Shown: one piece after another, positions 32,162 to 51,664 of the stretch
Layout of the letters: each line of letters starts with the position of its first letter
Numbering within the stretch: the first letter of the stretch is position 1
Assembly (NCBI RefSeq): GCF_003968755.1
Contig: NZ_RYDL01000004.1
Coordinates: 124,001 to 188,000 of the forward strand
From: Flavobacterium sp. RSP15
GTDB taxonomy: Bacteria > Bacteroidota > Bacteroidia > Flavobacteriales > Flavobacteriaceae
Reading direction: 5' to 3'
DNA: 64,000 nt
The notes under the pieces: generated by a model
Database searches by the model: none
What the model saw: the letters and a program-made list of their open reading frames with translations, nothing else
Told to the model about the DNA's origin: nothing
Translations under genes and position numbers: made by a program

Positions 32162-35044
32162 ATGAATTCAGAAAAAACCACTACTCTAAATCATAATCTA
32201 ACCATAGGACAAAGAATATCTACTAGAGGAGAAGATTTTATTGTTACGGGCACTAACACAAATCACGATGGTTCACAATTATTGGAAGCTGAGGGCATTA
32301 GTGAATTGGTGAAAGGAAAACGATTTTCTTTTGATACCAATTTAGATACCGACATAAAACCTATTGACCCCAATTTCACGACACTTATTCCTGATACCGA
32401 CAGTGGTTACAGAAAAACAAAATTATTCCTAGAAACCCAAATCCGGAACTCAGCTATATTTTCAGATAAAATAACGATTGCTACAAAAGCTGCTATAAAT
32501 GCAGCAGAATACCAATTAACTCCTACCCTAAAAGCACTCCAATTACCAAGACCTCGCCTATTAATCGCAGACGGTGTTGGATTAGGAAAAACAATCGAAG
32601 TGGGTATTTTTCTAGCTGAAATGATCAAAAGAGGCAAAGGAAAACGCATTATGGTATTGGCTCCAAAATCAATACTAGCACAATTCCAACAAGAACTGTG
32701 GAACCGTTTTGCTATTCCTTTGGTACGATTAGATTCTGATGGAATTGCGAAAATTAAATCACAATTACCAGCCAACAAGAATCCTTTTGAATACTACGAT
32801 AAAACTATCATTTCAATTGACACCTTGAAGCAAAACGCAAAGTTTCGTCATTATTTAGAAAAATCGAGATGGGATGTTGTGGTTATTGATGAATGTCATA
32901 CAGTGGCTAATGATAGAAGCCAAAAAGGAGATTTGGCACAATTCATTGCGAAAAAATGCGAATCATTGATTCTTACTTCTGCGACACCACACAATGGTAA
33001 AAAAGAAAATTTTGCCAACCTCATCAATATGATTGAACCAACTGCCATTCCAAAAAATGGCGAGTACGATAAAAGTCACGTGGAGCCATACTATGTGCGT
33101 AGATTCAAAAATGATATTGCAGATGAAACAGTTAGAGCCAACTTTCAGGAACGAAAAATTGTCCGTTCCTCTGCTTCCTTAAGTGTTGATGAAAATGATT
33201 TTTTACAATACCAACAAGAACTTAAATTTCTGGCTATTGAGAAAATAAAAGAAGGAAACGAACAAAAATCCAAAAACGATTTTCTGTTTTCTATAGGTTT
33301 ATTCAAGGGGTTTATGTCATCGCCTCTTGCTGCTTTAGAAAGTGTAAAACGAAGATTGGAAAAAGTCAAAGTTAAAAACAATTCTGATGATAGTTTTGAG
33401 GATAACGTAGAAATCTTGGAGACCTTAAAAACCAAAATCGAAAAAATTCTATCTGCAAAATCAGATACAAAATACAAAAAATTAAAAGAAACGCTACTAG
33501 GTTTAGGATGGTCTGGCAAAAAGCAGGACGACCGATACGTTATTTTTGCGGAACGCATCAAAACGCTGGAATATTTGAGAGACAATCTTAAAAATGATTT
33601 CAAAATTACGGATGAGGCTATTGCCTATTTTCACGGTGGTCTTTCGGATAGTGAACAACAAAACATCGTGGAAGATTTTGGAAAACAAGATAGTACAGTA
33701 AAAATTCTATTGTGTTCTGATTCAGGATCTCAGGGGGTTAACTTACATTATTTCTGTAACCGTATGTTCAATTATGACATTCCTTGGTCCTTGATTACTC
33801 TAGAACAACGAAACGGTCGTATTGATCGCTATGGGCAAAAGAAGACTCCTTTTATTCATTACATTATTGCCGAATCCGATATTGATGGATTGAAAACCGA
33901 TTTACACATTGTAGATCGATTGACCAAAAAAGAAGAAGAAGTCTATAAAACATTAGGGGATGCTGGTTCTGTAATGAAGTTATACGATACCGATAAAGAA
34001 GAAAAGTTTATAGAACAGGCATTTTTAAAACAAAATGAAAATTTTCTGGACAGCACCGCCAAAGCAATGGTCGATTTTGACTTCTCCACGCTTTTTAACA
34101 ATGAGGATGATAAAACAGCCGTATTGGTTACTGACAATCCTTATGAACAACCAACCTCTATCTACTCTTCTGATTTTAAATATTACGAGGCTTTGTTCGA
34201 GCAATTAGACTCAGCAAAACAATTACAACACAAGGAAGTTACGGTAGCCGAAGATTATATTGAAATTGTTAACACCAAAGACCTTAACCAAATCTTATTC
34301 GATTTGCCACCAGAATCTAAACCGGCTATTGGCAGTTTATACAAATTATCATTGGATAAAGATTTAGTCCAAAAATCCATTGAAGATGCCCGAAAGAAAA
34401 AAGGAGCTTGGGCTGAATTTCAGGTGCTCTATGATTTACATCCTGTCGTACGGTATTTTATGACCAAATTAGAAGCCAGCGTGGATAAAGATGTGGCATT
34501 AGTTGCCAAATCTAAAATATTTCCCGCTCAAACTTCTTGGTATATTTTTCAAGGACAAATTGCCAATAATCTTGGACAACCGGTATTGTCCGATTTTTAT
34601 GTGGTAGGATTGAATGACGACGGAACTATTCATCGAAAAACACTCGATTTAAATCAGTTCATTTCAGAGTTTAAATTGTCAGAAAAGTTGTTTACGGAAA
34701 CCATAACAGAAGAAGATCTTGCAAACTTGCAAAGCATTTTGCCCGATGCCGTAGAATGGGCACACAGCCGTATGCAGGAAGAACAACAATTGTTGGAAGG
34801 TAATATGGAGACCAAAATGGCCACTTACCAAACCAAGATCGAAAGTTGGCACGCAGCAGCAATAGAACAATTAGAAATTGATTTTACAGATAAATCCTTG
34901 GGTAATTATTGGGCAAAGATGAAAGACAATAAACAGCGGGAAATAGAAACGATTTTAAGCAGTTCCAGCCAATACTTTCAAGACTTAACTTCCTTGCAAG
35001 GACAACCTTATTTAAAAGTAATTGCTGTTTTTTATAATTCATAA
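32162..35044 (+). CDS. SNF2-family helicase (DrmD-like)
   Basis: This 960-residue SF2 helicase has motif I GVGLGKT (138-144), motif II DECH (243-246), motif III LTSATP, motif V SGSQGVNLH and motif VI QRNGRIDRYGQ (about 548-558). That is the SNF2/RapA arrangement. The N-terminal 60 residues are a small beta-barrel-like region (IGQRISTRGEDFIVTG). The C-terminal 400 residues are an extension unlike chromatin remodelers. The gene ends 6 bp before the adenine methylase gene, so the two are translationally linked. This pair is the same combination as drmD and drmMI of class 1 DISARM. It probably translocates on DNA and helps discriminate unmodified phage DNA. Confidence 0.85.
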   Translation: MNSEKTTTLNHNLTIGQRISTRGEDFIVTGTNTNHDGSQLLEAEGISELVKGKRFSFDTNLDTDIKPIDPNFTTLIPDTDSGYRKTKLFLETQIRNSAIFSDKITIATKAAINAAEYQLTPTLKALQLPRPRLLIADGVGLGKTIEVGIFLAEMIKRGKGKRIMVLAPKSILAQFQQELWNRFAIPLVRLDSDGIAKIKSQLPANKNPFEYYDKTIISIDTLKQNAKFRHYLEKSRWDVVVIDECHTVANDRSQKGDLAQFIAKKCESLILTSATPHNGKKENFANLINMIEPTAIPKNGEYDKSHVEPYYVRRFKNDIADETVRANFQERKIVRSSASLSVDENDFLQYQQELKFLAIEKIKEGNEQKSKNDFLFSIGLFKGFMSSPLAALESVKRRLEKVKVKNNSDDSFEDNVEILETLKTKIEKILSAKSDTKYKKLKETLLGLGWSGKKQDDRYVIFAERIKTLEYLRDNLKNDFKITDEAIAYFHGGLSDSEQQNIVEDFGKQDSTVKILLCSDSGSQGVNLHYFCNRMFNYDIPWSLITLEQRNGRIDRYGQKKTPFIHYIIAESDIDGLKTDLHIVDRLTKKEEEVYKTLGDAGSVMKLYDTDKEEKFIEQAFLKQNENFLDSTAKAMVDFDFSTLFNNEDDKTAVLVTDNPYEQPTSIYSSDFKYYEALFEQLDSAKQLQHKEVTVAEDYIEIVNTKDLNQILFDLPPESKPAIGSLYKLSLDKDLVQKSIEDARKKKGAWAEFQVLYDLHPVVRYFMTKLEASVDKDVALVAKSKIFPAQTSWYIFQGQIANNLGQPVLSDFYVVGLNDDGTIHRKTLDLNQFISEFKLSEKLFTETITEEDLANLQSILPDAVEWAHSRMQEEQQLLEGNMETKMATYQTKIESWHAAAIEQLEIDFTDKSLGNYWAKMKDNKQREIETILSSSSQYFQDLTSLQGQPYLKVIAVFYNS

Positions 35045-35050
35045 TCAGAT

Positions 35051-38000
35051 ATGCTTAAATTTCTAAAAAATACCGGAGATTATTTCTCTACCAATTATTT
35101 TGATGAAGATTTCACTTCTAAAGTGTTGTCTAAAACGGGTTATGCGGCAGAGGATATCAAAGAATTCAATAAAAAAATTACGTCTTTAAAAGACCGTTTC
35201 TTCCGATTCAAACAATTGTTTATTGAGGGAAAACTACGTGTCAAAGATAAAATTGAAGAAACCCATAAGTTTCATTCTTTCCTACTAAATGTGTTGGGAT
35301 ATGATGGCGACTATCCGCAATATAAAAATCTGTTCCATCTAACCGAAAAGGATGTGATTCCGGTGCGTCATATTTTGTATCGTGGAGACCAACCACACGT
35401 GATGATAATGGAAATGCAAGCTCTAATCCGTGAAGATGATACCGAACCCGATGGTCTATTCGAACAACAATACAATGTAGCCGAAGAAGAACTGTCCAAT
35501 CCCCCGCAACGCTACCACCGCAGTCAATGGGATAAGGTTTTCACTACGCCAACTGGTGTTAGCATTTCTCCGGTAATTATCAATAAAGCCATTTCTGAAT
35601 TGTTTCTGTTGGAACAACACAACCGCCCGAAATACATTATGCTTTTGGCTGGAAACATAGTTTTTCTTTTAGAGCAGGAAAAATGGTTCCGTGGTAGTTA
35701 TTTAGAAATTGACTTGGAAGAATTATTCACCGAAGCAACTGCAAACCGGAATGCCAATAATTATGCACTGTTTTATTTCCTTTTGGGAAAAGAAACCTTG
35801 GCTCCCGACAGCAATATGGTTTTGCTGGACCAATTGGATGAAGACAGCCACAAAAGCGCCTATGAAGTTACCAAAGATTTAAAAACAGGTATCATCAATG
35901 CGGTCGAAGCTTTGGCTAACGAAGCGATATGGTATCATAATAATATCAAAGCTTTAGAACAAGACCTAGACGAAACAGACGATACCTTCGAACAGGAAAT
36001 CAAGGACGACTGTTTGCGCATTATCTACCGTTTACTCTTTATCTTCTATGCCGAAAGCCGAGAAGAGTTAGACATTCTGCCAAGCAATGACCCTATTTAT
36101 AATAAAGGTTATTCGCTCGAAATGTTGCGTGAACTCGAACAAGTTCCTTTGTATTCCGAAAGTAGTATCAATGGCTATTTTTTTCACGAATCCTTGAGTA
36201 AATTATTCTATGTGTTGAGTTCCGGTTATCGTGAAAGTGAAAACGGCAACAACAAAAGTTTCCGCGTGCGCCACATCGACTCCCCAATTTTTGACGACCG
36301 CAAACTCTATCATTTGCACAAAGTAAAATTCCGTAATAAAACCTGGCAAGATATCATTTGTCAATTGTCACTTTCCAGACAACAAAAAAACAAAACTCGT
36401 GGGCGTATTTCGTATGCCAATCTGGGAATTAACCAGTTGGGTAGCGTGTACGAAAGTTTATTGGCTTTCCGAGGTTTTTATGCCGAACAAGATTATATCG
36501 AAGTTCACAAAGCAGGGAAACCGCATGAAGGAACGTATATGGTGCCACGTTCCCGCAGAGACGATTTCAAAGAAAACGAAATCCTGAAAGACAATAAGGA
36601 TCAAGACATCATTACAAAAAAAGGAACTTTTGTCTATCGCCTGAGTGGTCGTGACCGACAAAAATCAGCTTCCTATTATACACCTGAGGTATTAACCAAG
36701 TGTACCGTAAAATACACCCTAAAACCCATCTTGGAAAAGTTGGAAAAAGGCGAAATGAAAGCCGTTGAATTACTGGAACTAAAACTATTGGAACCGGCAA
36801 TGGGTGCTGCTGCCTTTCACAACGAAATGATCAATCAGGTAGCCGATGCCTATTTGAACTACCGCCAAAAAGAACTCCGTGACAGTGGCAAAAACGAATG
36901 GCGTGTAGCTCCGGACAAATACCTCGAAGAACTGCAACGTGTAAAAGCTTACATCGCTACCAACAATACCTACGGGGTCGATTTAAACCCAACGGCTATT
37001 GAGTTGGGTAAACTCTCTTTGTGGCTCAACGTGATTCATAAAGATATGGAAACGCCTTTCTTTAGCAACCGTTTGGCGGTAGGTAATGCCGTGGTGGGTG
37101 CTTGGTTGAAAGTCTATGATGCTAAAGATTTAATGGTAGATTTAGACAAAAATGGTACTGTAGCTACAAAACAATCCAAAAAAGAATGGTGGGACAAAGC
37201 TCCTCGTCTATTGGAATTCAAACCTTCTACTGATTACGACAAAATAAAACACAACCGCAAGCAGGACGAAATCTATCATTTCTTGTTGCCTGATAAAAAT
37301 ATGTTGGCCTCTGCAGGGATTAAAATGCTGAAAGCGGCCTTTGAAAACGAAAACAAAGCAGTTACCAACTGGAAAAAAGAATGGTGCAAGCCACTCTCCA
37401 AAACCGAAGTAGAAAAACTAAGAACCATTAGCACCAAAATAGACGAACTGCTCACGGAGTATTACAAATTTCAACGCTCCATAAACCAAGCAACTGCTAC
37501 CAAACAACATATTTTTGGCGTGCCCGTAAAACAAATTACGGCCGAAATGCGCAGTTATGACGAAAAAGAACGCCTTGCTGATCAACGCAACCGCCACAAC
37601 GCACCCTATTTCAAACTAAAAATGGTGATGGATTATTGGTGCAGTTTATGGTTTTGGGATGTGCGTGAAGCAGCTGCAATACCCAACCGCAGACAATACT
37701 GGCAAGACATTGAAGAAATCCTGAAGCTTGATGTAAACAAAGCCATTGAGGGTATCGAAGACCGCCGAGGACAACAATCTATGTTTGAAACTGGTGTGCA
37801 AATGAGTATGGTGTTAGAACCTGGAACCTCCGCTGTAGAAAATCAAGCTTTTACCGATGTGGTGGTTGACAGCACCCAACAACAGGATTTGTTTGACAAA
37901 AACCAACGACTAGTTTTGGTAAGCCAACTCGCCAAACAATACTTTTTCTTTCACCCGCAACTGGAGTTTCTGGAAGTGTTTTGGGAACGTGGAGGTTTTG

Positions 38001-39934
38001 ATTTGATTGCCGGAAACCCACCGTGGGTAAATATTGAAATGGATGAAGCAGGTATAATGTCTGAAATTCATCCAGAAATTGATATTCGTAATTTTTCTGC
38101 ACAACAGATTAAAAATAAAGTTGAAACAATTCTAAACGATAATACAAATTTAAAAAGAGATTATATCAATGAAATGATATGGGCAGATTCTACAAAGGGA
38201 TTCTTATGTTCAATTCAAAATTACCCTCTTTTATTAGGACAGAAAAATAATTTGTACAAATGTGTTCTTCAAAATGGGTTTGATTTGATGCGGAAACAAG
38301 GTTTTATGGGTTTAATTCATCCTGAAACAGTTTATGATGATCCAAACGGGCAAGCTTTACGTCAAGAAATCTACCCAAGATTAAAATATCATTTTCAGTT
38401 TCAAAATGCTTTCAACTTATTTGCCGAAGTAGCACATCGCGAAAAATATGGTTCTCATATTTACGGTGGACAAAAAATGGATATTTCATTCTTTTCGATT
38501 AATAATTTATTTCATCCTTCTACCATTGATGGTTGTTTTATTCACGATGGGAAGGGATTATGTGGAGGAATTAAAATAAAAGGAGAAGGAGAAGATGGCT
38601 TTATTTGGAATGTCAAGCCTCATAAAGAACGGATTGTGAATTTCACAGAAAGTCGGTTACAAGTTTTATCCAAAACTTTTGAAAATTCAGAGGAAGGAAA
38701 AACAGCCAAGTTAGTTTCAATTCATTCATCATCGATAATTACTGTTTTGGAGAAATTAAGTGATTTTAAGTCTTCAATTAATAATTTCGAATCAAAAATA
38801 ACAGATGCTTTCAATGAAACAAATGCACCTAGAGATGGAATTTTGTTAAGAGAAACAAAATTTCCTGACATTGCTAAATATGAGATGGTCTATAGTGGTC
38901 CACATATTTTTGTTTCAAACCCATTGTACAAAACACCCAGAGAAATTTGCACACAAAAAGATCATTTTGACACCATATATGGGCATTTAATATCAGAAGA
39001 TTTTATTGCCCGAACTAATTACGTTCCAGACCAACATACTGAGCTTTTTCCAAAATTGATAAAAGGTTTTAAGACAGGTAAAAAGGACGAAGTCGGAAAT
39101 GATGTGTATGACAATTGGATTAATTATTACAAAGTGGGTTTCAGAAAAATGCTAAATCAGGCAGGAGAAAGAACATTAAGTGGGGCAATTCTTCCTCCAA
39201 AAACAAGCCACATACACGGAATAATTACTATAATTTTTAAAGATAATGCCCATTTAATTGAATTAATGGGTTTAACATCGTCTATCACTCTCGATTTTTT
39301 CATTAAAACGGTTGGTGCATCAAACCTTGCAGATAGCAGAATTTCCGCTTTTCCACTAGGTATCGAAGAAAAATACAAATCGCAATTGTTCAATCGTACT
39401 TTGCAACTCAATTGTTTAAACAAATATTACGCTCCTTTATGGCAAGACAACTGGCAGGAGAGTTTTACCCAAGATAGTTGGAGTAAAAACGATACTCGTT
39501 TAAAACCGTTTGCCACCTTAAGCAAAGAATGGCAATGGAGCACACCCTTGCGCAACTGGTTTGAGCGCCGCCAAGCCTTGGTAGAAATAGATGTAATTAC
39601 TGCTATGGCATTGGGTTTAACGCTAGAGGAATTAAGCTTAATTTACAACGTGCAATTCCCGGTACTGCAACAAAACGAAGACGACACTTGGTACGATACC
39701 AAAGGAAATATTGTGTTTACGTGCAGCAAAGGATTAACTGGTGTTGGTCTAGACCGCCCAGTTTGGGACACCATCAAAAACCTAAAATCTGGAGAAACTT
39801 ACGAACACACCATTGAAAAAAGCGAACTGTACAGAGGTCAAAAAATGACGTATTTCGCGCCATTTGATAAGTGTGATAGGGTGGAAGATTATAAACTGGC
39901 TTGGGAGCATTTTGAAGAGGTTTTTGAAGCGTAA
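35051..39934 (+). CDS. Large adenine-specific DNA methylase (Eco57I/PglX/DrmMI type)
   Basis: The 1627-residue protein has the N6-adenine methylase signature. SASYYTPEVLTKC precedes motif I LLEPAMGAAAFHNE (about 577-590). TYGVDLNPTAIELGKLSLWL follows, and motif IV is GNPPWVNIE (about 987-995). The N-terminal 250 residues resemble the restriction part of Eco57I-type enzymes, but the expected E-X-K reads MEMQ, so cleavage activity is doubtful. The C-terminal 600 residues probably contain the target-recognition domain. It is co-transcribed with the SNF2-type helicase. Its likely role is to mark self DNA at a specific sequence; the recognition site cannot be read from sequence. Confidence 0.9.
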   Translation: MLKFLKNTGDYFSTNYFDEDFTSKVLSKTGYAAEDIKEFNKKITSLKDRFFRFKQLFIEGKLRVKDKIEETHKFHSFLLNVLGYDGDYPQYKNLFHLTEKDVIPVRHILYRGDQPHVMIMEMQALIREDDTEPDGLFEQQYNVAEEELSNPPQRYHRSQWDKVFTTPTGVSISPVIINKAISELFLLEQHNRPKYIMLLAGNIVFLLEQEKWFRGSYLEIDLEELFTEATANRNANNYALFYFLLGKETLAPDSNMVLLDQLDEDSHKSAYEVTKDLKTGIINAVEALANEAIWYHNNIKALEQDLDETDDTFEQEIKDDCLRIIYRLLFIFYAESREELDILPSNDPIYNKGYSLEMLRELEQVPLYSESSINGYFFHESLSKLFYVLSSGYRESENGNNKSFRVRHIDSPIFDDRKLYHLHKVKFRNKTWQDIICQLSLSRQQKNKTRGRISYANLGINQLGSVYESLLAFRGFYAEQDYIEVHKAGKPHEGTYMVPRSRRDDFKENEILKDNKDQDIITKKGTFVYRLSGRDRQKSASYYTPEVLTKCTVKYTLKPILEKLEKGEMKAVELLELKLLEPAMGAAAFHNEMINQVADAYLNYRQKELRDSGKNEWRVAPDKYLEELQRVKAYIATNNTYGVDLNPTAIELGKLSLWLNVIHKDMETPFFSNRLAVGNAVVGAWLKVYDAKDLMVDLDKNGTVATKQSKKEWWDKAPRLLEFKPSTDYDKIKHNRKQDEIYHFLLPDKNMLASAGIKMLKAAFENENKAVTNWKKEWCKPLSKTEVEKLRTISTKIDELLTEYYKFQRSINQATATKQHIFGVPVKQITAEMRSYDEKERLADQRNRHNAPYFKLKMVMDYWCSLWFWDVREAAAIPNRRQYWQDIEEILKLDVNKAIEGIEDRRGQQSMFETGVQMSMVLEPGTSAVENQAFTDVVVDSTQQQDLFDKNQRLVLVSQLAKQYFFFHPQLEFLEVFWERGGFDLIAGNPPWVNIEMDEAGIMSEIHPEIDIRNFSAQQIKNKVETILNDNTNLKRDYINEMIWADSTKGFLCSIQNYPLLLGQKNNLYKCVLQNGFDLMRKQGFMGLIHPETVYDDPNGQALRQEIYPRLKYHFQFQNAFNLFAEVAHREKYGSHIYGGQKMDISFFSINNLFHPSTIDGCFIHDGKGLCGGIKIKGEGEDGFIWNVKPHKERIVNFTESRLQVLSKTFENSEEGKTAKLVSIHSSSIITVLEKLSDFKSSINNFESKITDAFNETNAPRDGILLRETKFPDIAKYEMVYSGPHIFVSNPLYKTPREICTQKDHFDTIYGHLISEDFIARTNYVPDQHTELFPKLIKGFKTGKKDEVGNDVYDNWINYYKVGFRKMLNQAGERTLSGAILPPKTSHIHGIITIIFKDNAHLIELMGLTSSITLDFFIKTVGASNLADSRISAFPLGIEEKYKSQLFNRTLQLNCLNKYYAPLWQDNWQESFTQDSWSKNDTRLKPFATLSKEWQWSTPLRNWFERRQALVEIDVITAMALGLTLEELSLIYNVQFPVLQQNEDDTWYDTKGNIVFTCSKGLTGVGLDRPVWDTIKNLKSGETYEHTIEKSELYRGQKMTYFAPFDKCDRVEDYKLAWEHFEEVFEA

Positions 39935-39983
39935 AGTTCGAAAGGTTTTACTACAACCAAACGAAATATAATTTAGCCCAATA

Positions 39984-40020
39984 ACTCCCCTCTCCTTTGG
40001 AGAGGGGCTGGGGGTGAGGA
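39984..40020. repeat. REP-like CCCCTCTCC/GGAGAGGGG hairpin
   Basis: A perfect 9-bp GC-rich stem with loop TTT is followed by CTGGGGGTGAGGA. This element type is common between genes in Bacteroidota. Its position 50 bp after the methylase stop could make it an mRNA 3' end. Confidence 0.6.
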
Positions 40021-40092
40021 TAAATTAGGATAGTATTTGTGTCTAAAATTGCTTTCTAACAAAAACAGTAATTTCAAAAAACGTTTTAATTT

Positions 40093-40123
40093 TTGTCGCA
40101 AATATTGCCTAAATGTGCGACAA
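40093..40123. promoter_or_regulatory. AbiE-type operator, upstream copy
   Basis: TTGTCGCA and TGCGACAA are perfect 8-bp arms, separated by 15 bp. The half-site GTCGCAAATATT resembles the half-site GTCACAAATAT of the second operator 100 bp downstream. AbiEi antitoxins are known to repress their own operon by binding inverted repeats. Confidence 0.6.
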
Positions 40124-40195
40124 TTAATTTAGAGTAAAGCTATATAAAATAAGAGATTGTTCCGTTTGTAATTGTTTATGCTTAAAAAATATTTC

Positions 40196-40222
40196 GTCAC
40201 AAATATTTACTATATTTGTGAC
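40196..40222. promoter_or_regulatory. AbiE-type operator overlapping a promoter element
   Basis: GTCACAAATAT and ATATTTGTGAC are perfect 11-bp arms around TTACT. The right arm contains TATATTTG (40211-40218), a match to the Bacteroidota -7 element TAnnTTTG. A repressor bound here would block transcription of the AbiE genes, which start about 100 bp downstream. Confidence 0.65.
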
Positions 40223-40319
40223 AAGATCATGAAATGAGCATAACCGATAAATTAGTCATAAACACGAATGATTATATGTGAATTACATATGACCGATAAA
40301 AAACAATAAATATCAGCAT

Positions 40320-40934
40320 ATGAAAAAAGAACCACAAAATATAGAACAAAAAGTATTCAATAAAATGAAAAGAACCAAGCCGGGCACTTTGTATTTTATT
40401 GAACAATTTAGCAAATTAGCCGAAAAAACCGCTATTCGTAAGGCGTTACAACGCCTAAAAGAAAACGAAAAAATAGTACGAGTGGCACAAGGTATTTATG
40501 TAATCCCAAAAGAAAGCGAACTCGTGGGTAAAATAATACCCGGTGCCGAAGAAGTAATGGCTGCCATTGCCAAAAAAGACCGATTCCGAATAGTACCTAC
40601 AGGCATACAAGCACAACATTTATTGGGATTGAGCACACAAGTACCTATGAGATTGGTCTATCTTACGGATGGTGCTCCAAGAACAATACATATTGGAAAA
40701 CAAACCATTAACTTAAAAAAAACAATACCCAAAAATCTGATTGCCAAAGGAGAAATTAGTGGTTTGGTAATTCAGGCCTTAAAAACCATAGGAAAAGACA
40801 AACTAGAGGAAAAAAGCGAAACGATTATCTTGGAACAATTAAAAAAAGAAAAACCAGAAAACATCCTTCACGATAGCAAACTAGCACCAGCCTGGATTGC
40901 AACTATTCTGAAAAAAGCAATACCAACCGAATGA
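40320..40934 (+). CDS. AbiEi-type antitoxin (DUF6088-like)
   Basis: The 204-residue protein has an N-terminal winged-helix domain (LYFIEQFSKLAEKTAIRKALQRLKENEKIVRVAQGIYVIP), typical of AbiEi antitoxins and DUF6088 proteins. The C-terminal domain (MRLVYLTDGAPRTIHIGKQTINL) matches the region that counters the toxin in this group. It directly precedes the AbiEii-type nucleotidyltransferase gene. In known AbiE systems the antitoxin represses its promoter through inverted repeats, and two such repeats lie upstream. The 84 bp between antitoxin and toxin genes are longer than usual but contain no obvious gene. Confidence 0.85.
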   Translation: MKKEPQNIEQKVFNKMKRTKPGTLYFIEQFSKLAEKTAIRKALQRLKENEKIVRVAQGIYVIPKESELVGKIIPGAEEVMAAIAKKDRFRIVPTGIQAQHLLGLSTQVPMRLVYLTDGAPRTIHIGKQTINLKKTIPKNLIAKGEISGLVIQALKTIGKDKLEEKSETIILEQLKKEKPENILHDSKLAPAWIATILKKAIPTE

Positions 40935-41018
40935 AACGCCCACGAAAATTATCATTGATACACAGGGATATGATTATAGGTGTTCCATCTTCCAATAAAA
41001 AGCAAATAGTATAATCGG

Positions 41019-42014: not shown

Positions 42015-42020
42015 TCCTTT

Positions 42021-45000
42021 ATGTTACCACTACAACAAGCTTACGAAGTAAAACATTCTATACTGGAATACCTTAAAGCTACTTTTAGCTTTAAGGACAA
42101 AGTGGTACACAAAGCATTTTATGATTTCATTACACAGGAAGAAGAAGGGATTTTCAAAGGCCCTTATGTGTCCATAAAATTACCTTTTGTAACGGCTAAT
42201 AGTGCCGATATAATGCCATTGGAAATAAAACCTAGTTTTCCGCCTTACGATCATCAATACAAATCGTTTAAAAGGCTGAATACAACAAACAACAATATCC
42301 CAAAATCTACATTAATAACCACGGGAACCTCATCGGGTAAGACGGAATGTTTTTTATATCCTATTCTTGACTTTTGCCATAAAAACAACCACCGTCCCGG
42401 AATAAAAGTGGTTATATTATATCCAATGAATGCCTTGGCAACGGATCAGGCAAAACGTTTGGCAGAAGCCATTTGGAATGAGCCATTATTAAAAGGAAAA
42501 ATAGCCGCAGGTTTATTTATTGGAGAAGGAAAAGACAAAGCCAAATACCCTACAGATATGGGCGAAAACCATATCATCGAAAATAGAGATAGTATCTTGG
42601 ATAGTCCACCGGACATTTTGTTAACCAACTTCAAAATGTTGGATTATGCTTTGATGCGTGCAAAATTTCATAACCTTTGGAGCTATAATTTGGAAGACCC
42701 TTCCTTATTGCAATTCTTGGTATTGGATGAATTACATACTTACGATGGTGCACAAGGAACAGATGTGGCCAATTTAATAAGACGTTTAAAACTAAAATTA
42801 GACATTCCCAAAGGACAAATATGTGCCATTGGGACATCGGCAACAATTGGTTCTGGTGAGGAATCGAAAAAATTACTTTGTGAATATGCCGAGAAAGTTT
42901 TTGGAGAAGAGTTCAAAGAAGAGGCAATTATTACCGAAAACAGACTTACGGTCGACGATTTTTTTGAAGGAGATGAAGAAAATCTGGAACGATTTATACC
43001 AAGACAAATTGGGCTTTTGGAAAGTAGATTACAGGAAAATGAAACCTACGAAAACTACATCAATCGTCAAAAAAGACTATGGCAAATCCCCGAAACTATT
43101 GATACTGTTGCATTAGGAAATGAATTGAAGAAACTCAAAATTGTTAAAGATTTAATAGCACTTACCAGTACGAACATTAAATCTTTACATCAATTATTAT
43201 ACGAACTCTCCGATAGAAATTCAGAATTCAAAACCCTTGCTGAATGGGATGAAGCAAATGAGTTAAACCCTCGCGAAGAAGTGGTGAATTCAATTGTGGC
43301 TTTAATAAGTGCAGCCAAAACAGGAAAAGAAAAGTTTCCCCTCTTGTTTATTCAAATACAAATTTGGATACGAGAACTAAGCGGTGTGTTGAGAGAAATG
43401 AGTGAAACACCTAAATTTACTTGGAAAGATAAAGTAGCTGGCGAGAATGACCCAAGAGCATTACCCGCTTACTTCTGTAGGGATTGTGGCTCCAGTGGAT
43501 GGTTAGGAATTAAGGATGATAATAAAAATCATTTTGATACCGATCCTCAAAAAGTGTACGAATACTATTTTGAGAACCATAAAAACATCTATTTCATCAA
43601 TACAACCAATCACAAACACATTGAGGAATACGAACCAACCAATACCATAAACGATTATATTGGAACAAAAACATTACAACTGCAAGAAAAAGAAGGAACC
43701 AATACCTTCAAAATTCAAGCAGTTAGAAAATTAAACGAAACAAGAGCAAAACACATTTGTCCGGAGTGCAATTCTGAAAATACATTAAGCATTATTGGAA
43801 CTAAGATAGCCACATTATCATCCATTACTGTAAGCCAAGTACTGTCATCAGATCTTGACCCAAGAGAGGACAAGTACCGTAAAATATTAGCGTTTACCAA
43901 TAGTGTGCAAGATGCTGCACACCAAGCTGGTTTCGTGGAAGCAAGGAACTATCGTTTTACTTTTCGTTCCTCACTTCAAAAAGTGATAAATAAACTGGAC
44001 AGACCGGTAACTTTAGAAGAACTTCAAAAGGAATTTATTGGCTATTGGAAAATGAATTCCGATGAAACTAAACAAAATAATGAACTGGCTTATTATTATC
44101 GATTTTTTCCGGAGGACTACAAAGGCAAAATCGAATTGGATAAAGATTATCGAATTGGAAGCCAGTTTACAGAGGATTTCAAAAAAGAATTTGATGAACG
44201 AATACGTTGGGAAATTGTTTCCGAGTACGGATACAATGCCCTAATTGGACGAACTCTTGAAAAATCGGGTGCTTCAGCAGTAAAATTTGATGAAGAAAAA
44301 ATCAAATCTATTTTTCCAATACTCCAAGATTGGTTAAGCCAAAACAATTTAATCTCCATAACCGAAACCGACTTACTGCCGTTTATCAATGGAATTTTGC
44401 ATCGTATAAGAATTCGTGGTGGAGTGAATCACGAATATTTAAATAAATCCAGAACGGGAAGATTAACTAGATTTGATCTGAACTGGTACAAAGACAACAG
44501 ACATTTCTTGAATAAAATGTTTGGAAGTAGATCGAGATTTCCAAAAGTAATAAGTGCAAGTAAACAATCAGGAGAAATTATTGATACTACTTTTACCAAT
44601 ACAAACAATTGGTACAGAAGTTATTTTATAAAATCCTTCCCAATGGCATCAGCTCATCAAGCTATCATTAATGACTTCTACAGCCGATTATTGGAAAGCT
44701 TGGAAGAAGTGAAAATCTTGGATAAAGTGGTATTAGAAGGCAATAATAACTATGCTATTCTTGCCAACGCCATCATAATAGAGAACAAAGTTAAAAAACA
44801 CGTATGCAACAACTGTGGCTCCTTTTTAAATGTAGCCGCTTCGGATACTTCAACTAGGAATACCAGATGCTTAGATTACACCTGTGTAAATGGTGTTTAT
44901 GAACCGGATACAAAGCAAAAACCAAATTATTATCAGTTAGTTTACAATCGAAATCGGTCTCCTAGAATTTATGCAGCCGAGCATACAGGAATTTTAGAAC

Positions 45001-48000
45001 GAAAAGACCGAGAGAACAAAGAAATTGATTTCAAAGAACGACCTAATTTCAACTCCTTAAATACTATTGTAGCCACCTCCACTTTGGAGATGGGTATTGA
45101 TATTGGAACATTGAATACTGCTATCAATAATTCCGTACCACCACTAACATCTAATTTTCTGCAAAGAGTGGGACGTGCTGGGCGTTCTTCTGGAACGGCT
45201 ATGATAGCTACATTTGCCCAAAGCAAAGCACACGATCTTTTTTATTTTGAAGAGCCCTCTGATATGATGGAAGGTGAAATAGCGACACCCGGTTGTTATC
45301 TTGAAGCCAAAGAAATTTTATACAGACACTTTTTGGCTTATTGTTTGGACAATTGGGCTACAGCAGACCCTAAAAACAATACCATCCCCGGAAAAATTAT
45401 TGCATTACGGTTGTCTAATACTGATCTTAACGCTGCCGAATTTATTGTCAACCGAATTATTTCATACATCAAATCAAATGAACTGATATTAGTAAATCGA
45501 TTTATCGATTTTTATAAACCAGACCTCAATAACGAAAGCAGAGTATTAGAAGAACTGAAATTATTTTTAGCAGAAGATGTGTTTTACGAAAGAATAAAAA
45601 GAGTATTCAAAAAAGTAAAAGAAGAATTGATCAGCATTCAAAAGAAGAGAAAAGAGATTGATGAAATCATCAAGAAAAACAATTTACCTGAAACTGATGA
45701 GGAGAGAAAAAATTTAGAAGGAGATAAAAAAGCACTATCAGGATTACGAAAAATAATAGAAAAAAGGGCAATATTAGAACATTTAACTAATGTTGGTTTA
45801 TTGCCTAACTATGCTTTTCCAGAAACAGGAGTTACATTAAATGCTTGGGTAAATGCTAACAAACCTAAAGCAAGTACTGGTTTACCAACAAACAAACAAT
45901 TTGAGATAATCAGGTCTTCCAATGTAGCTATAAGAGAATTAGCACCTGACAATGTATTTTATTCACAGGGTTATAAATTAGCCATTTCAGGATTAAATAC
46001 TTTCGATTGGAAAGATGCTGATGTTTTAATTAAAAAACGTTTTTGTTCCAATTGTGACCACATAGAAAATAATGCGACCACTACGGAGACGAATTGTCCC
46101 AAATGTGGTGACAACTCTTGGTCTTCAGCAAAAAATCAACACACTTTTGTGAAAATAAGTGGCGTAAAATCAATCAATACCCGAGAAAATGCAACATTAG
46201 ACGATAGTAGTGATGATAGAGATGTAATTACATATAGAATTTCAAAACATATAAAATTCGATTACAATACCTTTCAAGGTGCTTGGGGGATGAAAAATAT
46301 TCCATTCGGTATAGAATATGTGAAAAATGTAGATATAACAGAAGTTAATTTAGGATTATCATCAGTTACGGATGCAAATAAAATTACTATCAATAATTTA
46401 GAAGACATTCCAAATCACGGCTTTGTAACCTGCAAACATTGTGGAAAAAGCAGCTCAACACCACACAAAGCAAAAAATAAAGAGAATAATAATTTCAAAT
46501 TCCATTACGGCTATTGCAAAAATAAAGACTATGATTACCAGGGTAAAACCGATGCCGTTTTTGAAGAAGTTTTCTTATTTCGAGAAATAAAAACAGAAGC
46601 GCTCAAAGTATTGTTACCTGTTCAAGATTTGGAAAGCGAAGCCCAAGTAAATATGTTTAAAGCGGGTTTAGAACTGGGATTAAAAAAATATTACAAAGGA
46701 AATCCGCAACACCTCAATATTGTAAACTATTCCGAATTCAATAAGCAAAACAGCCGATTTGATAAATACTTGGTAATACTCGATAACATTCCGGGCGGTA
46801 CAGGATATTTAGAAAAACTTTTCAATCCATCTGAATTTACCGAAGTAATTAAAAAAGCTTATGAAGCAATCAAAGAATGTAATTGCCAGCACAACGGAAA
46901 AGATGGTTGTTATCGTTGCATTTATACCTACTCCAATCAATACATTCAAGAAGATTTAAGCAGAAATAAAGCAGAAATTTTATTCAAAAAAATTGTAGAT
47001 AATTCAAGTGGATGGGAACCCTATTCCTCAGGTTTAGGTTCATTGTCAGGTAACGGTCAAATTGAAGAAAGTGAACTGGAAGATCGCTTTATCAGGAGCC
47101 TACGGAATTATTGTGCTAAAAACGCAGAACAAGGATTCATTTTCGAAAGTTATGTAGAAGATGCTATCATTAATTATAAATTAAAAACAGTTAACGGGGA
47201 TTATACTTTTTACTATGTAATAAGACCCCAATTGGAACTAGGACCTGCGGAAAACGTGAAATACAAAACACGTTCAGACTTTTACATTTCATTAACAAGC
47301 GCTGAGAAAGAAGGCGTTACCTTAAGCGATGACAAAATTACAAGCGTAAAGAATATTGCAGTATATCTCGATGGATATACCTACCACGCTACTAAAGAAA
47401 ATTGCCGTTTTTATAATGATTTGCAAAAACGAAATGCAATAGTAGAATCGGGTGATAAAATTACCTGGTCACTTTCGTGGTCAGATATTGAAAAATTCGA
47501 TGCTATTGAAAAAGAAAGCGATCAGGTTTCAAAACAATTTAAAAAAGATGCCTTAGCAGTGGATAGCATCAAATACAAAACAACGATTGAGTTTTTCAAA
47601 AAAATACCTTATTGGAATAATTACAATAGTGATTTTATGCAAACAAAAAACGCAATGGATCGATTATGCTGGCTGTTGTCTAATCCACTGCAAGAGCAAT
47701 TTCCAAAACAAAAAATAGGGTTAGCATTAGCAATACAACAAACCAAATTTGCAATTCCATCTATGGAAGCTATCGAATTAATTGAAGTTTTAAATAAGCC
47801 TTCGATTGTTATTAACCCAACAGTACAGGCTACAAATAAAAACCAAGGGAATTTTTATAACCTTCCTGACAACCAGTTAAAATATGATTTTGCAAGTCTA
47901 GTTTTTGGTATTCGATTAAATGATTTATCAATAAAAGCAGCCTGTAGCGTAACCGAATTGCAAGAAAATCTTGAAAAACAAAATTGGGAGCTGTTTTGGC

Positions 48001-48347
48001 AACTTTACAATTTAATTCAAGAGGATTGCGTATTGGTAAATGAAACTATTGATACTACTATTTTACCAACTAATACGGATGAAACAATAGATAAATACAA
48101 TTGTCTAAAATACCACGAAAAGGAATTGCATCAAATTGTGATACAATTGATAGACAACAATATTCCATTTAATGAAGAAGGCGGATTTTATATAGAATAT
48201 GAAGGCATTTATGCCGAAGCAATGCTCGGCTTTGAAAATATAAAAATAGTAATACAACCACTTTCCGATGAAGACAGAAAAATTTTTAAAAAGGCTGGTT
48301 ACCAAGAAATAAATACTAATGAATTTAATATAAATCAAATAATATGA
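42021..48347 (+). CDS. Giant DEAD/DEAH helicase with DUF1998-type region and nuclease-like C-terminus (DruE-like)
   Basis: This 2108-residue SF2 helicase has motif I TGTSSGKTE (about 100-108), motif II DELH (about 236-239), GTSATIG, and motifs V-VI in TSTLEMGIDIG and QRVGRAGRSSG (about 1047). It carries several CxxC pairs (CRDCGSSGW, CPECNSEN, CNNCGSF, CSNCDH, CPKCGD, CKHCGK). The DUF1998/MZB-like cluster CNCQHNGKDGCYRCIYTYSN is near 1620-1640, after DNIPGGTGYLEKLF. Residues 1685-1830 look like a Vsr/DUF559-type PD-(D/E)XK fold: TRSDFYISL, then VYLDGYTYHA and DLQKRNAIVESG. Size and order recall DruE of Druantia and the DrmA/DrmB functions of DISARM combined. The next gene overlaps by 4 bp. 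Confidence 0.85.
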   Translation: MLPLQQAYEVKHSILEYLKATFSFKDKVVHKAFYDFITQEEEGIFKGPYVSIKLPFVTANSADIMPLEIKPSFPPYDHQYKSFKRLNTTNNNIPKSTLITTGTSSGKTECFLYPILDFCHKNNHRPGIKVVILYPMNALATDQAKRLAEAIWNEPLLKGKIAAGLFIGEGKDKAKYPTDMGENHIIENRDSILDSPPDILLTNFKMLDYALMRAKFHNLWSYNLEDPSLLQFLVLDELHTYDGAQGTDVANLIRRLKLKLDIPKGQICAIGTSATIGSGEESKKLLCEYAEKVFGEEFKEEAIITENRLTVDDFFEGDEENLERFIPRQIGLLESRLQENETYENYINRQKRLWQIPETIDTVALGNELKKLKIVKDLIALTSTNIKSLHQLLYELSDRNSEFKTLAEWDEANELNPREEVVNSIVALISAAKTGKEKFPLLFIQIQIWIRELSGVLREMSETPKFTWKDKVAGENDPRALPAYFCRDCGSSGWLGIKDDNKNHFDTDPQKVYEYYFENHKNIYFINTTNHKHIEEYEPTNTINDYIGTKTLQLQEKEGTNTFKIQAVRKLNETRAKHICPECNSENTLSIIGTKIATLSSITVSQVLSSDLDPREDKYRKILAFTNSVQDAAHQAGFVEARNYRFTFRSSLQKVINKLDRPVTLEELQKEFIGYWKMNSDETKQNNELAYYYRFFPEDYKGKIELDKDYRIGSQFTEDFKKEFDERIRWEIVSEYGYNALIGRTLEKSGASAVKFDEEKIKSIFPILQDWLSQNNLISITETDLLPFINGILHRIRIRGGVNHEYLNKSRTGRLTRFDLNWYKDNRHFLNKMFGSRSRFPKVISASKQSGEIIDTTFTNTNNWYRSYFIKSFPMASAHQAIINDFYSRLLESLEEVKILDKVVLEGNNNYAILANAIIIENKVKKHVCNNCGSFLNVAASDTSTRNTRCLDYTCVNGVYEPDTKQKPNYYQLVYNRNRSPRIYAAEHTGILERKDRENKEIDFKERPNFNSLNTIVATSTLEMGIDIGTLNTAINNSVPPLTSNFLQRVGRAGRSSGTAMIATFAQSKAHDLFYFEEPSDMMEGEIATPGCYLEAKEILYRHFLAYCLDNWATADPKNNTIPGKIIALRLSNTDLNAAEFIVNRIISYIKSNELILVNRFIDFYKPDLNNESRVLEELKLFLAEDVFYERIKRVFKKVKEELISIQKKRKEIDEIIKKNNLPETDEERKNLEGDKKALSGLRKIIEKRAILEHLTNVGLLPNYAFPETGVTLNAWVNANKPKASTGLPTNKQFEIIRSSNVAIRELAPDNVFYSQGYKLAISGLNTFDWKDADVLIKKRFCSNCDHIENNATTTETNCPKCGDNSWSSAKNQHTFVKISGVKSINTRENATLDDSSDDRDVITYRISKHIKFDYNTFQGAWGMKNIPFGIEYVKNVDITEVNLGLSSVTDANKITINNLEDIPNHGFVTCKHCGKSSSTPHKAKNKENNNFKFHYGYCKNKDYDYQGKTDAVFEEVFLFREIKTEALKVLLPVQDLESEAQVNMFKAGLELGLKKYYKGNPQHLNIVNYSEFNKQNSRFDKYLVILDNIPGGTGYLEKLFNPSEFTEVIKKAYEAIKECNCQHNGKDGCYRCIYTYSNQYIQEDLSRNKAEILFKKIVDNSSGWEPYSSGLGSLSGNGQIEESELEDRFIRSLRNYCAKNAEQGFIFESYVEDAIINYKLKTVNGDYTFYYVIRPQLELGPAENVKYKTRSDFYISLTSAEKEGVTLSDDKITSVKNIAVYLDGYTYHATKENCRFYNDLQKRNAIVESGDKITWSLSWSDIEKFDAIEKESDQVSKQFKKDALAVDSIKYKTTIEFFKKIPYWNNYNSDFMQTKNAMDRLCWLLSNPLQEQFPKQKIGLALAIQQTKFAIPSMEAIELIEVLNKPSIVINPTVQATNKNQGNFYNLPDNQLKYDFASLVFGIRLNDLSIKAACSVTELQENLEKQNWELFWQLYNLIQEDCVLVNETIDTTILPTNTDETIDKYNCLKYHEKELHQIVIQLIDNNIPFNEEGGFYIEYEGIYAEAMLGFENIKIVIQPLSDEDRKIFKKAGYQEINTNEFNINQII

Positions 48348-50437
48348 TGAAGCTTTTCATTCACGATAAATGTATGGAGCAATTATTTGAATTGCCAAAA
48401 TCCACCCAAAAAAAGGTGCTTGAATTTCAAAGAAAATTTAGAGAAAACTCAAAATCAAGTGCTATTAATTTCGAGTCCATTTCTACTTTCAAGGACCAAC
48501 AATTAAGAACGGCAAGAATTGATGATAAGTACAGAGCAATCGTAAAAGCTCCGGTATCAGGAGATAATTACTATTTGCTATGGGTTGACAATCACGACGA
48601 AGCAATGGATTGGGCTAAAAACAAAGTCTTTCATTGGAATGACAATACCGATACAGCTCAAATATTTACGGCTCCTGAAGCAGAAATTACAATTAACACA
48701 CTAACTGATGCTTTACAAACACCACGTTTATTTGATGGTTTTTCAAACGAACAGCTAGTACAAATTGGTGTGCCATCCCTAACATTAAGTTTAGTTCGTA
48801 GTCTAAAAGACCTTAATGAATTAGGTGATAGTGAAAAATATATCCCAACAGATGCTTTTGAAAATCTATTTTACCTAACCGAAGGACTCAACATTGAACT
48901 GCTAATTGCTGAAATTAACGAAGGGAAATCAAAAGCTACGGAACAAGAGGCAAAAGCAAACAGCATCAACAACAAACGAAGTTTTGTTGAGGTAGATGAT
49001 GATTTAATGTCTGAAATCATAAACGGGGATTTAAGCAAATGGCAAATTTACCTTCACCCATCACAACGTAAATTAGTCGAACCTGATTTCAAAGGTTCTG
49101 TAAGAGTTACGGGCGGTGCTGGTACAGGAAAAACAGTAGTAGCTCTGCACAGATTGAAAAAGTTAACTTCAATTTTAATTGATGGAGATGACAGAAAAAT
49201 AGTATTTACGACTTTTACCAATGCATTAACACAAAACTTGACGGTGCTGGCAGATAAATTAAATATTGATAAAAGCAAAATAGTCATCACTAATATTGAT
49301 ACCCTTTTACGTGATTTAGCGAAAGAATACAATTTGGTAGATAATAATGTTAGAATTTTAGATTTCTACAATTCAAAATCAAGTTACGAGCTTTGGGACG
49401 ATTTCTTGGAACAAAATTTAACCGAATTTGACACCTTGTTTCTAACTGCTGAATATCAGAACGTAATTCTTTTTAATGACCTTAAAAATATAGAAGATTA
49501 TCTAAAAGTTAGCCGAATAGGTCGTGGAAAACCCATTTCCCGTAAAGTAAAAATGGACGTTTGGGAATTGGTCGAAAAATACAACAAGAAAAAGAAAGAA
49601 GAGGATTATGTTGACAGGGCAGAATTATTTAACGTGGTGACAAACCACTTGAAAACGCTTCCACTTAGACCTTTCAAAAATGTAATTACAGACGAAGTGC
49701 AGGATTTATCCAATGTTGAACTTAGGTTCCTTAGAGCTTTAGTGGAAGAAAAAGTAAATGATTTATTTTTGGTTGGTGATCCTTATCAGAAGATTTATGC
49801 AAGAAAAATTAATTTCACTGCTGCAGGAATTTCAATAAGAGGAAACCGTAGTAAACAGTTGAAAATAAATTATAGAACTTCAGAAGAAATAAAACGTTTG
49901 GCAGTTACTGCCGTTCAGGGTATCAACTATGATGATTTTGATGGAGAAACTGAAAAATTAAACGGCTATTTATCCTTATTTCACGGAGAATTACCAACCT
50001 ACCAAGTCTTTAAAACAAAATCGGATGAAATAAATGCTATCCTCATTCATATTGAAGAATTAAAAGAAAGAGGATTTAAGCTCAATGATATTGCATTGGC
50101 TTTTAGAACCAAAGAGGCATTAAAAGAAGTAAAAACGGCATTACATAAAAATAAAATTCCTTTTTCTGATAATGCAACCGTTGGGAAAAGTAATTCAGGA
50201 GTTACACTTTCAACATTCCACGGTTTAAAAGGATTGGAATTTAAGGCGGTAATGCTTTGCGATGTAAACAAAAGAACAGTACCCTTGATGATCCAAAAAA
50301 TGGACACAATGGAACAACAAGAAAAAGAAGACTATTTAAATAGTGAAAAATCACTTTTATATGTTGCAATGACCAGAGCCATCAGTGTTTTGAAAATAGT
50401 GGGAACAGGGATAAAATCGGAATTAATAAACATTTAA
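48344..50437 (+). CDS. UvrD-family helicase with RelE/ParE-like N-terminal domain
   Basis: The 697-residue protein begins with about 95 residues resembling RelE/ParE toxins: KLFIHDKCMEQLFELPKSTQ, then RTARIDDKYRAIVKAP and YYLLWVDNHDEAMDWA. A UvrD-like SF1 helicase follows, with Walker A GGAGTGKTVVALHR (about 257-270), Walker B ITDEVQDLSN (about 447-456), LVGDPYQKIYARK, and late motifs STFHGLKGLEFKAVML and LLYVAMTRA. The start overlaps the end of the giant helicase gene (ATGA), so the two products are made together. It is the last gene of the array; the next gene is 95 bp away and separately spaced. Confidence 0.87.
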   Translation: MMKLFIHDKCMEQLFELPKSTQKKVLEFQRKFRENSKSSAINFESISTFKDQQLRTARIDDKYRAIVKAPVSGDNYYLLWVDNHDEAMDWAKNKVFHWNDNTDTAQIFTAPEAEITINTLTDALQTPRLFDGFSNEQLVQIGVPSLTLSLVRSLKDLNELGDSEKYIPTDAFENLFYLTEGLNIELLIAEINEGKSKATEQEAKANSINNKRSFVEVDDDLMSEIINGDLSKWQIYLHPSQRKLVEPDFKGSVRVTGGAGTGKTVVALHRLKKLTSILIDGDDRKIVFTTFTNALTQNLTVLADKLNIDKSKIVITNIDTLLRDLAKEYNLVDNNVRILDFYNSKSSYELWDDFLEQNLTEFDTLFLTAEYQNVILFNDLKNIEDYLKVSRIGRGKPISRKVKMDVWELVEKYNKKKKEEDYVDRAELFNVVTNHLKTLPLRPFKNVITDEVQDLSNVELRFLRALVEEKVNDLFLVGDPYQKIYARKINFTAAGISIRGNRSKQLKINYRTSEEIKRLAVTAVQGINYDDFDGETEKLNGYLSLFHGELPTYQVFKTKSDEINAILIHIEELKERGFKLNDIALAFRTKEALKEVKTALHKNKIPFSDNATVGKSNSGVTLSTFHGLKGLEFKAVMLCDVNKRTVPLMIQKMDTMEQQEKEDYLNSEKSLLYVAMTRAISVLKIVGTGIKSELINI

Positions 50438-51536: not shown

Positions 51537-51664
51537 TAATTTGATTGGGTTTGAAAAAAATATTGAAGATAAAAGGATTTAATAACTTCTTTAACAAATC
51601 AAAACATGTAAAACCAAATCATCTAGTAATATTAATTAATTTGCAAACGAAATAGTGTGTTATT

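Follow-up and report, generated by a model that had tools for sequence, protein, structure and literature searches.

In a preprint by Bell et al. (2025; PMC12458937), ARMADA type II was described as a four-gene defence system, armA-armB-armC-armD, whose gene order is called strict there. The term ARMADA was met in this preprint (103 times) and in the texts of PMC13192584 (twice) and PMC12904381 (once). From BREX a related principle is known, since auxiliary effectors are embedded in the loci of BREX and of systems related to it (Rakesh and Krishnan 2026, PMC12839542), with a repertoire comprising GmrSD, OLD-TOPRIM, Schlafen proteins with histidine kinase and winged helix-turn-helix, PIN and PD-(D/E)XK. 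BrxU, a complete enzyme of the GmrSD family which adds a second defence to the BREX locus of pEFER, was shown to widen protection (PMC8565348). AbiE pairs have been treated as type IV toxin-antitoxin (TA) systems (PMC7319586, PMC3985639), and AbiEi of Streptococcus binds two 23-bp inverted repeats, 3 bp apart, and represses its promoter (PMC7319586). The subject of this report is an array of six genes on a stretch of 64,000 nucleotides (the window) from Flavobacterium sp. RSP15 (contig NZ_RYDL01000004.1, positions 124,001 to 188,000), which is probably an ARMADA type II operon whose armB/armC junction serves as a dedicated slot for exchangeable cargo, here an AbiE type IV TA pair.

The four arm genes of the window are identified by their homology as the recently described ARMADA type II operon (PMC12458937). 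With the window ArmC, a locus on an Escherichia coli plasmid (L024; loci and genomes are given by our own L and G numbers) was found which contains the same four genes and holds the residues mutated in the preprint at their printed positions, namely K136 and D236 (ArmA), G605 and N971 (ArmB), K110 and D234 (ArmC), and K266 and D454 (ArmD). All eight are kept in the window proteins, whose identity to those of L024 is 31–39%; K143 and D243 of ArmA align with K136 and D236, the Walker motifs being intact, and G585 and NPPW at 989 of ArmB align with G605 and N971. As ARMADA type II requires, ArmC is a YprA-family helicase with a Zn-binding domain (PF09369 at 1549–1634), and the residues of its C-terminal nuclease motif were invariant in 20 of 20 aligned rows; the Vsr assignment of this nuclease is that of the preprint. 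Residues 1–230 of ArmD, modelled with 26 relatives (mean pLDDT 90.9), resembled RelE/YoeB/YafQ toxins over residues 1 to about 97, with a VIA-align Z of up to 10.3 and a Foldseek probability of 1.00, the best E value being 1.9e-3 and none below 1e-3, while a profile search of this part against PDB sequences yielded no RelE relative (four rows, best E 0.016, a Dot/Icm substrate). The RelE-fold N-terminus of ArmD is a prediction from fold comparison and not from a sequence profile. The order armA-armB-armC-armD is present in the window, its contiguity interrupted by the AbiE pair, and recurs in unrelated phyla, which makes the arrangement more than chance; the E. coli ARMADA operon itself is common (513 of 5426 genomes with at least 80% of its 16.2 kb). 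The likeness to ARMADA type II as described in the preprint comprises the four-gene order, the eight tested residues, the RelE-UvrD fusion and the Vsr-like nuclease motif of ArmC; the difference is the AbiE pair between armB and armC, and the word AbiE is absent from the main text of the preprint.

An earlier note on this DNA, made from the letters and their open reading frames (ORFs), had put five large or linked functions on one strand, with spacings of 6, 385, 84 and 6 bp and a final 4-bp overlap. This proved exact to the base, the six ORFs being open on the + strand at the coordinates given, and its domain assignments (SNF2 helicase, adenine methylase, AbiE pair, DruE-like helicase, UvrD helicase) agreed with Pfam and PADLOC. 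One of its two suggestions, that the array is related to DISARM but belongs to another type which has already been described, was right, this type being ARMADA type II. The five functions do not form a single system: what recurs is the set of four arm genes, and the AbiE pair is an exchangeable insert at armB/armC. The note had named as a refutation a database match by which the exact order is a system with a name already; this applies to the four arm genes, but not to the six-gene arrangement with AbiE.

For the comparison of junctions, loci were taken from plasmids (3 hand-chosen of 97 matching records), genome contigs (the best 80 of a scan) and viral contigs (17, six of them with a strong ArmC). 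A search of 60 genomes of relatives gave G016, and matches at E ≤ 1e-100 were obtained in 4 of 395 genomes of an order sample and 10 of 395 of a phylum sample, both counts including G000 and G150. An insert was defined as an intergenic stretch of more than 300 bp. Rows dropped from the junction count were L002, L021 and L022 (pieces of G016), G150 (a near-copy of the window), G727 (ArmC match only) and the 11 of 17 viral loci with weak ArmC (L113–L123). Partial rows were L026 (split armC; dropped for armB/armC only), L088 (split armB; dropped for armA/armB only), G612 (split armC; dropped for armC/armD) and G619 (contig ending before armB; kept for armC/armD only). Among 89 loci with strong ArmC, 27 had no readable armB/armC junction: in five, about 10 kb of upstream sequence gave no match to ArmB with more than 50 bits, and in 22 the upstream sequence was shorter.

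Inserts were found at armB/armC in 29 of 71 loci, at armA/armB in 1 of 58 and at armC/armD in 2 of 90, a difference with p = 1e-13 (Fisher), valid if the rows are independent. When only the 50 loci with all three junctions readable were considered, the insert was at armB/armC alone in 15, at armA/armB and armB/armC together in one (L086), and at armC/armD in none; median gaps were 6 bp for armA/armB and 9 bp for armC/armD. The comparison shows that repeated insertion is confined to one junction, armB/armC, and that the genes of the armA-armB and armC-armD pairs remain close together. Judged by this distribution, the AbiE pair is to be regarded as an occupant of the armB/armC junction and not as a core part, and the data suggest that this spot is a slot where different bacteria carry different extra defence genes.

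The cargo was scanned with Pfam and PADLOC for the main ORFs of each occupied slot. AbiEi with AbiEii was present in the window and in L084, and also in L068, which is outside the 29 (contig without armB); three lineages unrelated to one another (window/G150, L068 and L084) thus have a full AbiE pair immediately ahead of armC, and L063 has an AbiEi-like ORF beside an AAA_21 gene. TmtA, which we take to be Tiamat, was found in G389 (E = 1e-272) and a TmtA-like protein in G016 (E = 4e-108). Other contents were sacsin or NOV_C proteins (G016, L027, L107, L032), Schlafen-AlbA with HATPase (L028, L032, L034, L109, and L097 by similarity), GmrSD (L039; N-domain in L096), OLD-TOPRIM with UvrD as in Gabija (L097), SIR2 (L066), dynamin-like proteins (L103, L053), a NERD-kinase-helicase (L056), a type III restriction-type helicase (L036), DprA (L067), an M78 peptidase match (L069), a pAgo-like protein (G330), a NucA/NucB-like match (L095), and SMEK and DUF2326 proteins (L106); L053 carries a multi-gene block with dynamin, OmpA and patatin, in which a match to MotA_ExbB falls slightly short of the cut-off. 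By a hand-made list, a recognised domain was present in at least one ORF of 24 of the 29 occupied slots, and in none of the scanned ORFs of the other five (L078, L086, L090, L092, L110). The cargo is largely of defence type, and close relatives often have different cargo. Of 75 cargo ORFs of at least 100 aa, chosen greedily in 25 occupied loci, 63 were on the armC strand, and in 20 of the 25 loci no more than 100 bp separated the end of the final one from armC.

Several of the 22 loci with short upstream sequence (e.g., L031, L033, L038, L068) show 2–4 kb of other, uncounted ORFs before armC, so that they may be occupied too. Contigs without armB contained uncounted ORFs before armC with PIN (L033), DUF2357-PDDEXK (L031) and PDDEXK (L038) domains and, in L055, a JAB match under the cut-off; as cargo these are suggestive.

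With the embedded effectors of BREX (PMC12839542) the cargo has in common the principle and a similar repertoire inside or beside core loci; it differs in its position, since no single preferred junction is described for BREX effectors in that article, the main text of which contains neither ARMADA nor AbiE. Like BrxU, the window insert is a second defence module next to a methyltransferase gene (PMC8565348); unlike BrxU, which is one enzyme between brxC and pglX, it is a TA pair, GmrSD being met only in L039 and L096. No report of the armB/armC slot was found among the articles listed by the literature searches, which covered bioRxiv only as far as its preprints are in PMC and did not extend to supplements; this is weak evidence of absence.

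Exchange could be followed between relatives. A near-identical copy of the array including AbiE exists in the same genus (G150; ArmA 100%, ArmB 90%, AbiEi 100%, AbiEii 99.4%, ArmC 99.7%, ArmD 100% identity). G016, of the same genus, has ArmA, ArmB and ArmC with 73, 69 and 68% identity to the window, but its armA-armB pair is separated from armC by 12.3 kb with four other genes, which take the place of the AbiE pair of the window. In several close pairs (L034/L112, L110/L112, L034/L110, L036/L034, L092/L111) DNA homology extended up to 4–22 bp from the armB stop and began again 0–15 bp ahead of armC, and the cargo in the interval did not match; in L066/L078 homology stopped about 40 bp ahead of the armB stop, and L095/L096 had part of the cargo in common. 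As a separate observation, no armD was present behind armC in G016 (L021/L022), where the system may be broken or ArmD may be dispensable.

A FastTree phylogeny of 99 ArmC proteins was labelled with 31 occupied, 42 empty and 26 not classed loci; L068, which has AbiE before armC on a contig without armB, was set to occupied by hand, G150 was kept, and the tree, which consists of ArmC proteins only, with no Druantia or DISARM outgroup, carries a long-branch warning (L067; L089 with L079). Occupied and empty loci were mixed, with 18 state changes, at least 17 of them forced by well-supported branches. All eight classed rows of the window's own clade were occupied, window and near-copy included, with AbiE (window/G150), TmtA (G389), a pAgo-like protein (G330) and Schlafen proteins (L028 and L032); G016 and L027 had a related helicase (46%) and a TmtA/sacsin-type protein (32%) in common.

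By Pfam and PADLOC, the insert of the window consists of adjacent genes for an AbiEi antitoxin and an AbiEii nucleotidyltransferase, the composition by which an AbiE type IV TA pair is recognised. Its AbiEi was up to 53% identical to AbiEi proteins of the same genus without an adjoining ArmC and 31–33% identical to those embedded in ARMADA (L063, L068), which points to separate recruitment. Before abiEi there are two palindromes of about 31 bp, 79% identical, the starts of which are 101 bp apart; the downstream copy contains TATATTTG, which we take to resemble the Bacteroidota -7 box. Of 150 genomes sampled, 20 had AbiEi relatives (19 from the genus and one from the order), which yielded 24 loci, that of the window included, some of them near-copies of one another (e.g., L162–L164). 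A palindrome close to TTGTCACAAAT-N9-ATTTGTGACAA, with at least 16 of 22 arm positions, was present upstream of abiEi in 22 of the 24, and for each of these none of 200 shuffles was as good; in 15 of the 22 it lay 34–38 bp before the projected abiEi start. The two loci below the bar (L168, L174) had a variant with a spacer one base shorter. The arms covary (GTCAC/GTGAC, GTCGC/GCGAC, GTCCC/GGGAC, GTAAC/GTTAC), as would be expected for the binding site of a dimer, and the palindromes are predicted operators. Palindromic repeats in the abiEi promoter are common to the window and to the Streptococcus system (PMC7319586); the size and distance of the window palindromes are different, and the gene string continues into armC-armD. 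Since armC starts 6 bp past the end of abiEii, armC-armD are probably the tail of the AbiE transcript and would then be transcribed in part from the AbiEi-controlled promoter; they may have come under AbiEi control.

Several points weigh against the explanation preferred here. The value of 29 of 71 is not a population frequency, because the genome loci were the best 80 of a scan, and the rows are not fully independent, e.g., L052 and G674 have identical ArmC. The slot of E. coli is empty: 514 of 518 matching genomes hold at least 80% of a 1200-bp junction query in one place, and 59 of 60 listed rows were single unbroken matches over at least 97%, which means that cargo is not needed. Gaps occur elsewhere (L086 at armA/armB, L040 and L090 at armC/armD), and the five loci without an ArmB match in about 10 kb before armC (L040, L070, L072, L075, L098) fit no count; they have either very long inserts or another arrangement. 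When labels were shuffled on the tree, the mean number of changes was 24, and at most 6 of 500 shuffles were as low as the 18 observed; occupied loci are thus clustered to some degree, so that occupancy, as judged from the tree, is partly inherited while the slot content changes. The palindrome pattern that was scored had been picked after the matches of a first scan had been seen. The slot may be merely the sole junction which tolerates insertion.

This last thought can be taken further, to a passive hotspot: insertion at armB/armC would spare the co-translation of the armA-armB and armC-armD pairs, and the cargo would be unrelated drift from defence islands. The tightness of the two outer junctions agrees with it, as do the abundance of defence genes in islands, the Avs2 gene just downstream in the window and the mixed block of L053 with MotA-like, OmpA, dynamin and patatin genes. 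Yet most recognised domains, in 24 of 29 occupied slots, are of kinds known from defence, and the cargo lies mostly on the armC strand, whereas random drift should also bring housekeeping genes and opposite strands; we give the hotspot appreciably less than an even chance.

An embedded toxin could instead act as a guard, which senses loss of ARMADA function, by a phage inhibitor or a lost subunit, and kills the cell. A precedent is PrrC, which is silenced by a linked type I restriction-modification enzyme and activated by a phage anti-restriction factor (PMC2610378); AbiE, Schlafen and SIR2, among the cargo types, have the reputation of toxin-like or abortive systems, and the common direction of cargo and armC and their closeness would fit. 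This explanation is nevertheless rather unlikely, since the 23 other abiEi loci of relatives have no ArmC match in their 1.5-kb flanks, 19 of them with an AbiEii match, so that AbiE does not depend on ARMADA, and GmrSD or Gabija-like cargo attacks DNA and need not guard anything. We are similarly doubtful that the AbiE pair acts by addiction only, stabilising the operon or a mobile carrier with no role in defence: AbiE does help to stabilise an integrative element in Streptococcus suis (PMC11062541), but most slot cargo of other lineages is not a classic addiction module.

That the set is DISARM class 1 or a rearranged Druantia deserves hardly any credence, for gene order and residues fit ARMADA type II instead. 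The earlier note had compared the first two genes with the class 1 DISARM pair DrmD and DrmMI, and the similarity is real as far as PADLOC goes, with DrmD as the best match of ArmA (325 bits) and DrmMI among those of ArmB (168 bits); with the NCBIfam model, DrmD reaches 352.4 bits against a curated cut-off of 610, DrmA 28.5 bits against 999, and the best PADLOC match of ArmB is a type IIG enzyme model, with 1736 bits far over DrmMI. The zinc region noticed in the giant helicase is the MrfA zinc-binding domain, and ArmC has DruE as its best PADLOC match (358 bits, E = 4e-107). DrmB, DrmC, DruA-D and DruH were not among the best 25 PADLOC matches listed per protein for 11 window proteins, and Pfam detected no PLD nuclease domain in the eight window proteins scanned, as the note had said. 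Membership in DISARM class 1 was dropped in view of DrmD and DrmA under their cut-offs, no DrmB or DrmC among the listed matches and no PLD domain; Druantia was dropped, as the DruE-type match concerned ArmC only, with no DruH or DruA-D among the matches listed. The view that the array is neither canonical DISARM nor canonical Druantia is borne out by these profile cut-offs and by the match to ARMADA type II.

Table 1. Features of the ARMADA type II locus with its AbiE cargo (positions in the window)
Feature	Position	Strand	Evidence
armA: BrxHII/RapA-like SNF2 helicase, 960 aa, PF00176/PF00271, Walker A K143, Walker B D243	32162..35044	+	ORF, Pfam/PADLOC, residue alignment
armB: PglX-like N6-adenine methyltransferase, Eco57I-type, PF07669, 1627 aa, S-adenosylmethionine (SAM) motif G585, NPPW at 989	35051..39934	+	Pfam/PADLOC, residue alignment
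Left part of armB/armC cargo slot: 385-bp leader with predicted abiE promoter/operator region	39935..40319	+	
Palindrome copy 1 (upstream), predicted AbiEi operator	40091..40123	+	Sequence scan, comparison of abiEi loci
Palindrome copy 2 (downstream), predicted AbiEi operator, contains TATATTTG	40192..40224	+	Sequence scan, comparison of abiEi loci
abiEi: DUF6088 antitoxin/repressor, 204 aa, cargo	40320..40934	+	Pfam; PADLOC AbiEi E=1e-64
abiEii: AbiEii-family nucleotidyltransferase toxin, 331 aa, cargo	41019..42014	+	PF08843; PADLOC E=1e-103
armC: YprA-family DEAD helicase, 2108 aa, Walker A K107, Walker B D236, MrfA Zn domain 1549-1634 (PF09369)	42021..48347	+	Pfam, PADLOC, alignment
armC C-terminus: Vsr-like PD-(D/E)xK domain: E1687, D1753, D1784-G-x-x-x-H1789, D1800, R1804	within 42021..48347	+	Alignment
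armD: GajB-like UvrD helicase, 697 aa, K263, D450; predicted N-terminal RelE-fold domain, residues 1 to about 97	48344..50437	+	PADLOC/Pfam, alignment, fold comparison

Some further features of the locus and its surroundings may be mentioned. Within armB, positions 38026–38236 form a short stretch which does not align with the otherwise 97–99.9% identical G150 copy, and a loss of homology in mid-armB was also seen in the close ARMADA pair L034/L112 (6315–7791); such breaks are as would be expected for an exchanged target-recognition region. Between armB and abiEi lies a GC-rich hairpin sequence (39987–40019). It was rejected as a mobile repeat, being present as a single genome copy at up to one mismatch, so that no repeat family exists at that stringency. 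The insert at 16381–18164 of L040, one of the rare ones between armC and armD, contains two opposite-strand ORFs. Past armD, at a distance of 95 bp, follows an ORF of 277 aa (50533–51366), identical in G150, with a weak PtuB-like HNH match (20.8 bits; cut-off 150) and a PDC-S32 match; it was never the best match of any ORF at E ≤ 1e-4 in the 103 collected loci. An Avs2-type gene (51665–55945; PADLOC E = 5e-138) is situated directly 3' of the ARMADA block, outside the part common to G150, the alignment with which stops at 51622.

From homology to the tested E. coli ARMADA, ArmB with ArmA would mark host DNA, and ArmC (helicase with fused nuclease domain) and ArmD (RelE-fold with UvrD helicase) would join them against invading DNA, acting directly and without cell killing. 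The slot should then provide a second layer of defence, here AbiE, which could stop growth when the first layer fails or when a phage disturbs the AbiEi/AbiEii balance; through a shared AbiEi-controlled promoter, ArmC and ArmD as the effectors of ARMADA would be linked with the feedback loop of the TA pair. Tentatively, ARMADA type II could perhaps be seen as a two-part platform, armA-armB for modification and armC-armD as effector, with a plug-in site for exchanged backup modules, where the AbiE pair of the window has drawn armC-armD into an operon which it regulates itself. If this were true, a phage which upsets AbiEi would release the toxin and at the same time increase the expression of ArmC and ArmD, as a regulated two-stage alarm.

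The locus combines an ordinary ARMADA type II core with a less ordinary feature, a preferred junction for exchangeable cargo, which is filled here by AbiE. The idea of embedded effectors, known from BREX, is extended to ARMADA, with one preferred junction, and this junction is a place to look for unknown defence genes, five of the 29 slots having no recognised domain in the scanned ORFs. The slot also offers a direct test of whether embedded modules serve as backup, guards or regulators of their host system.

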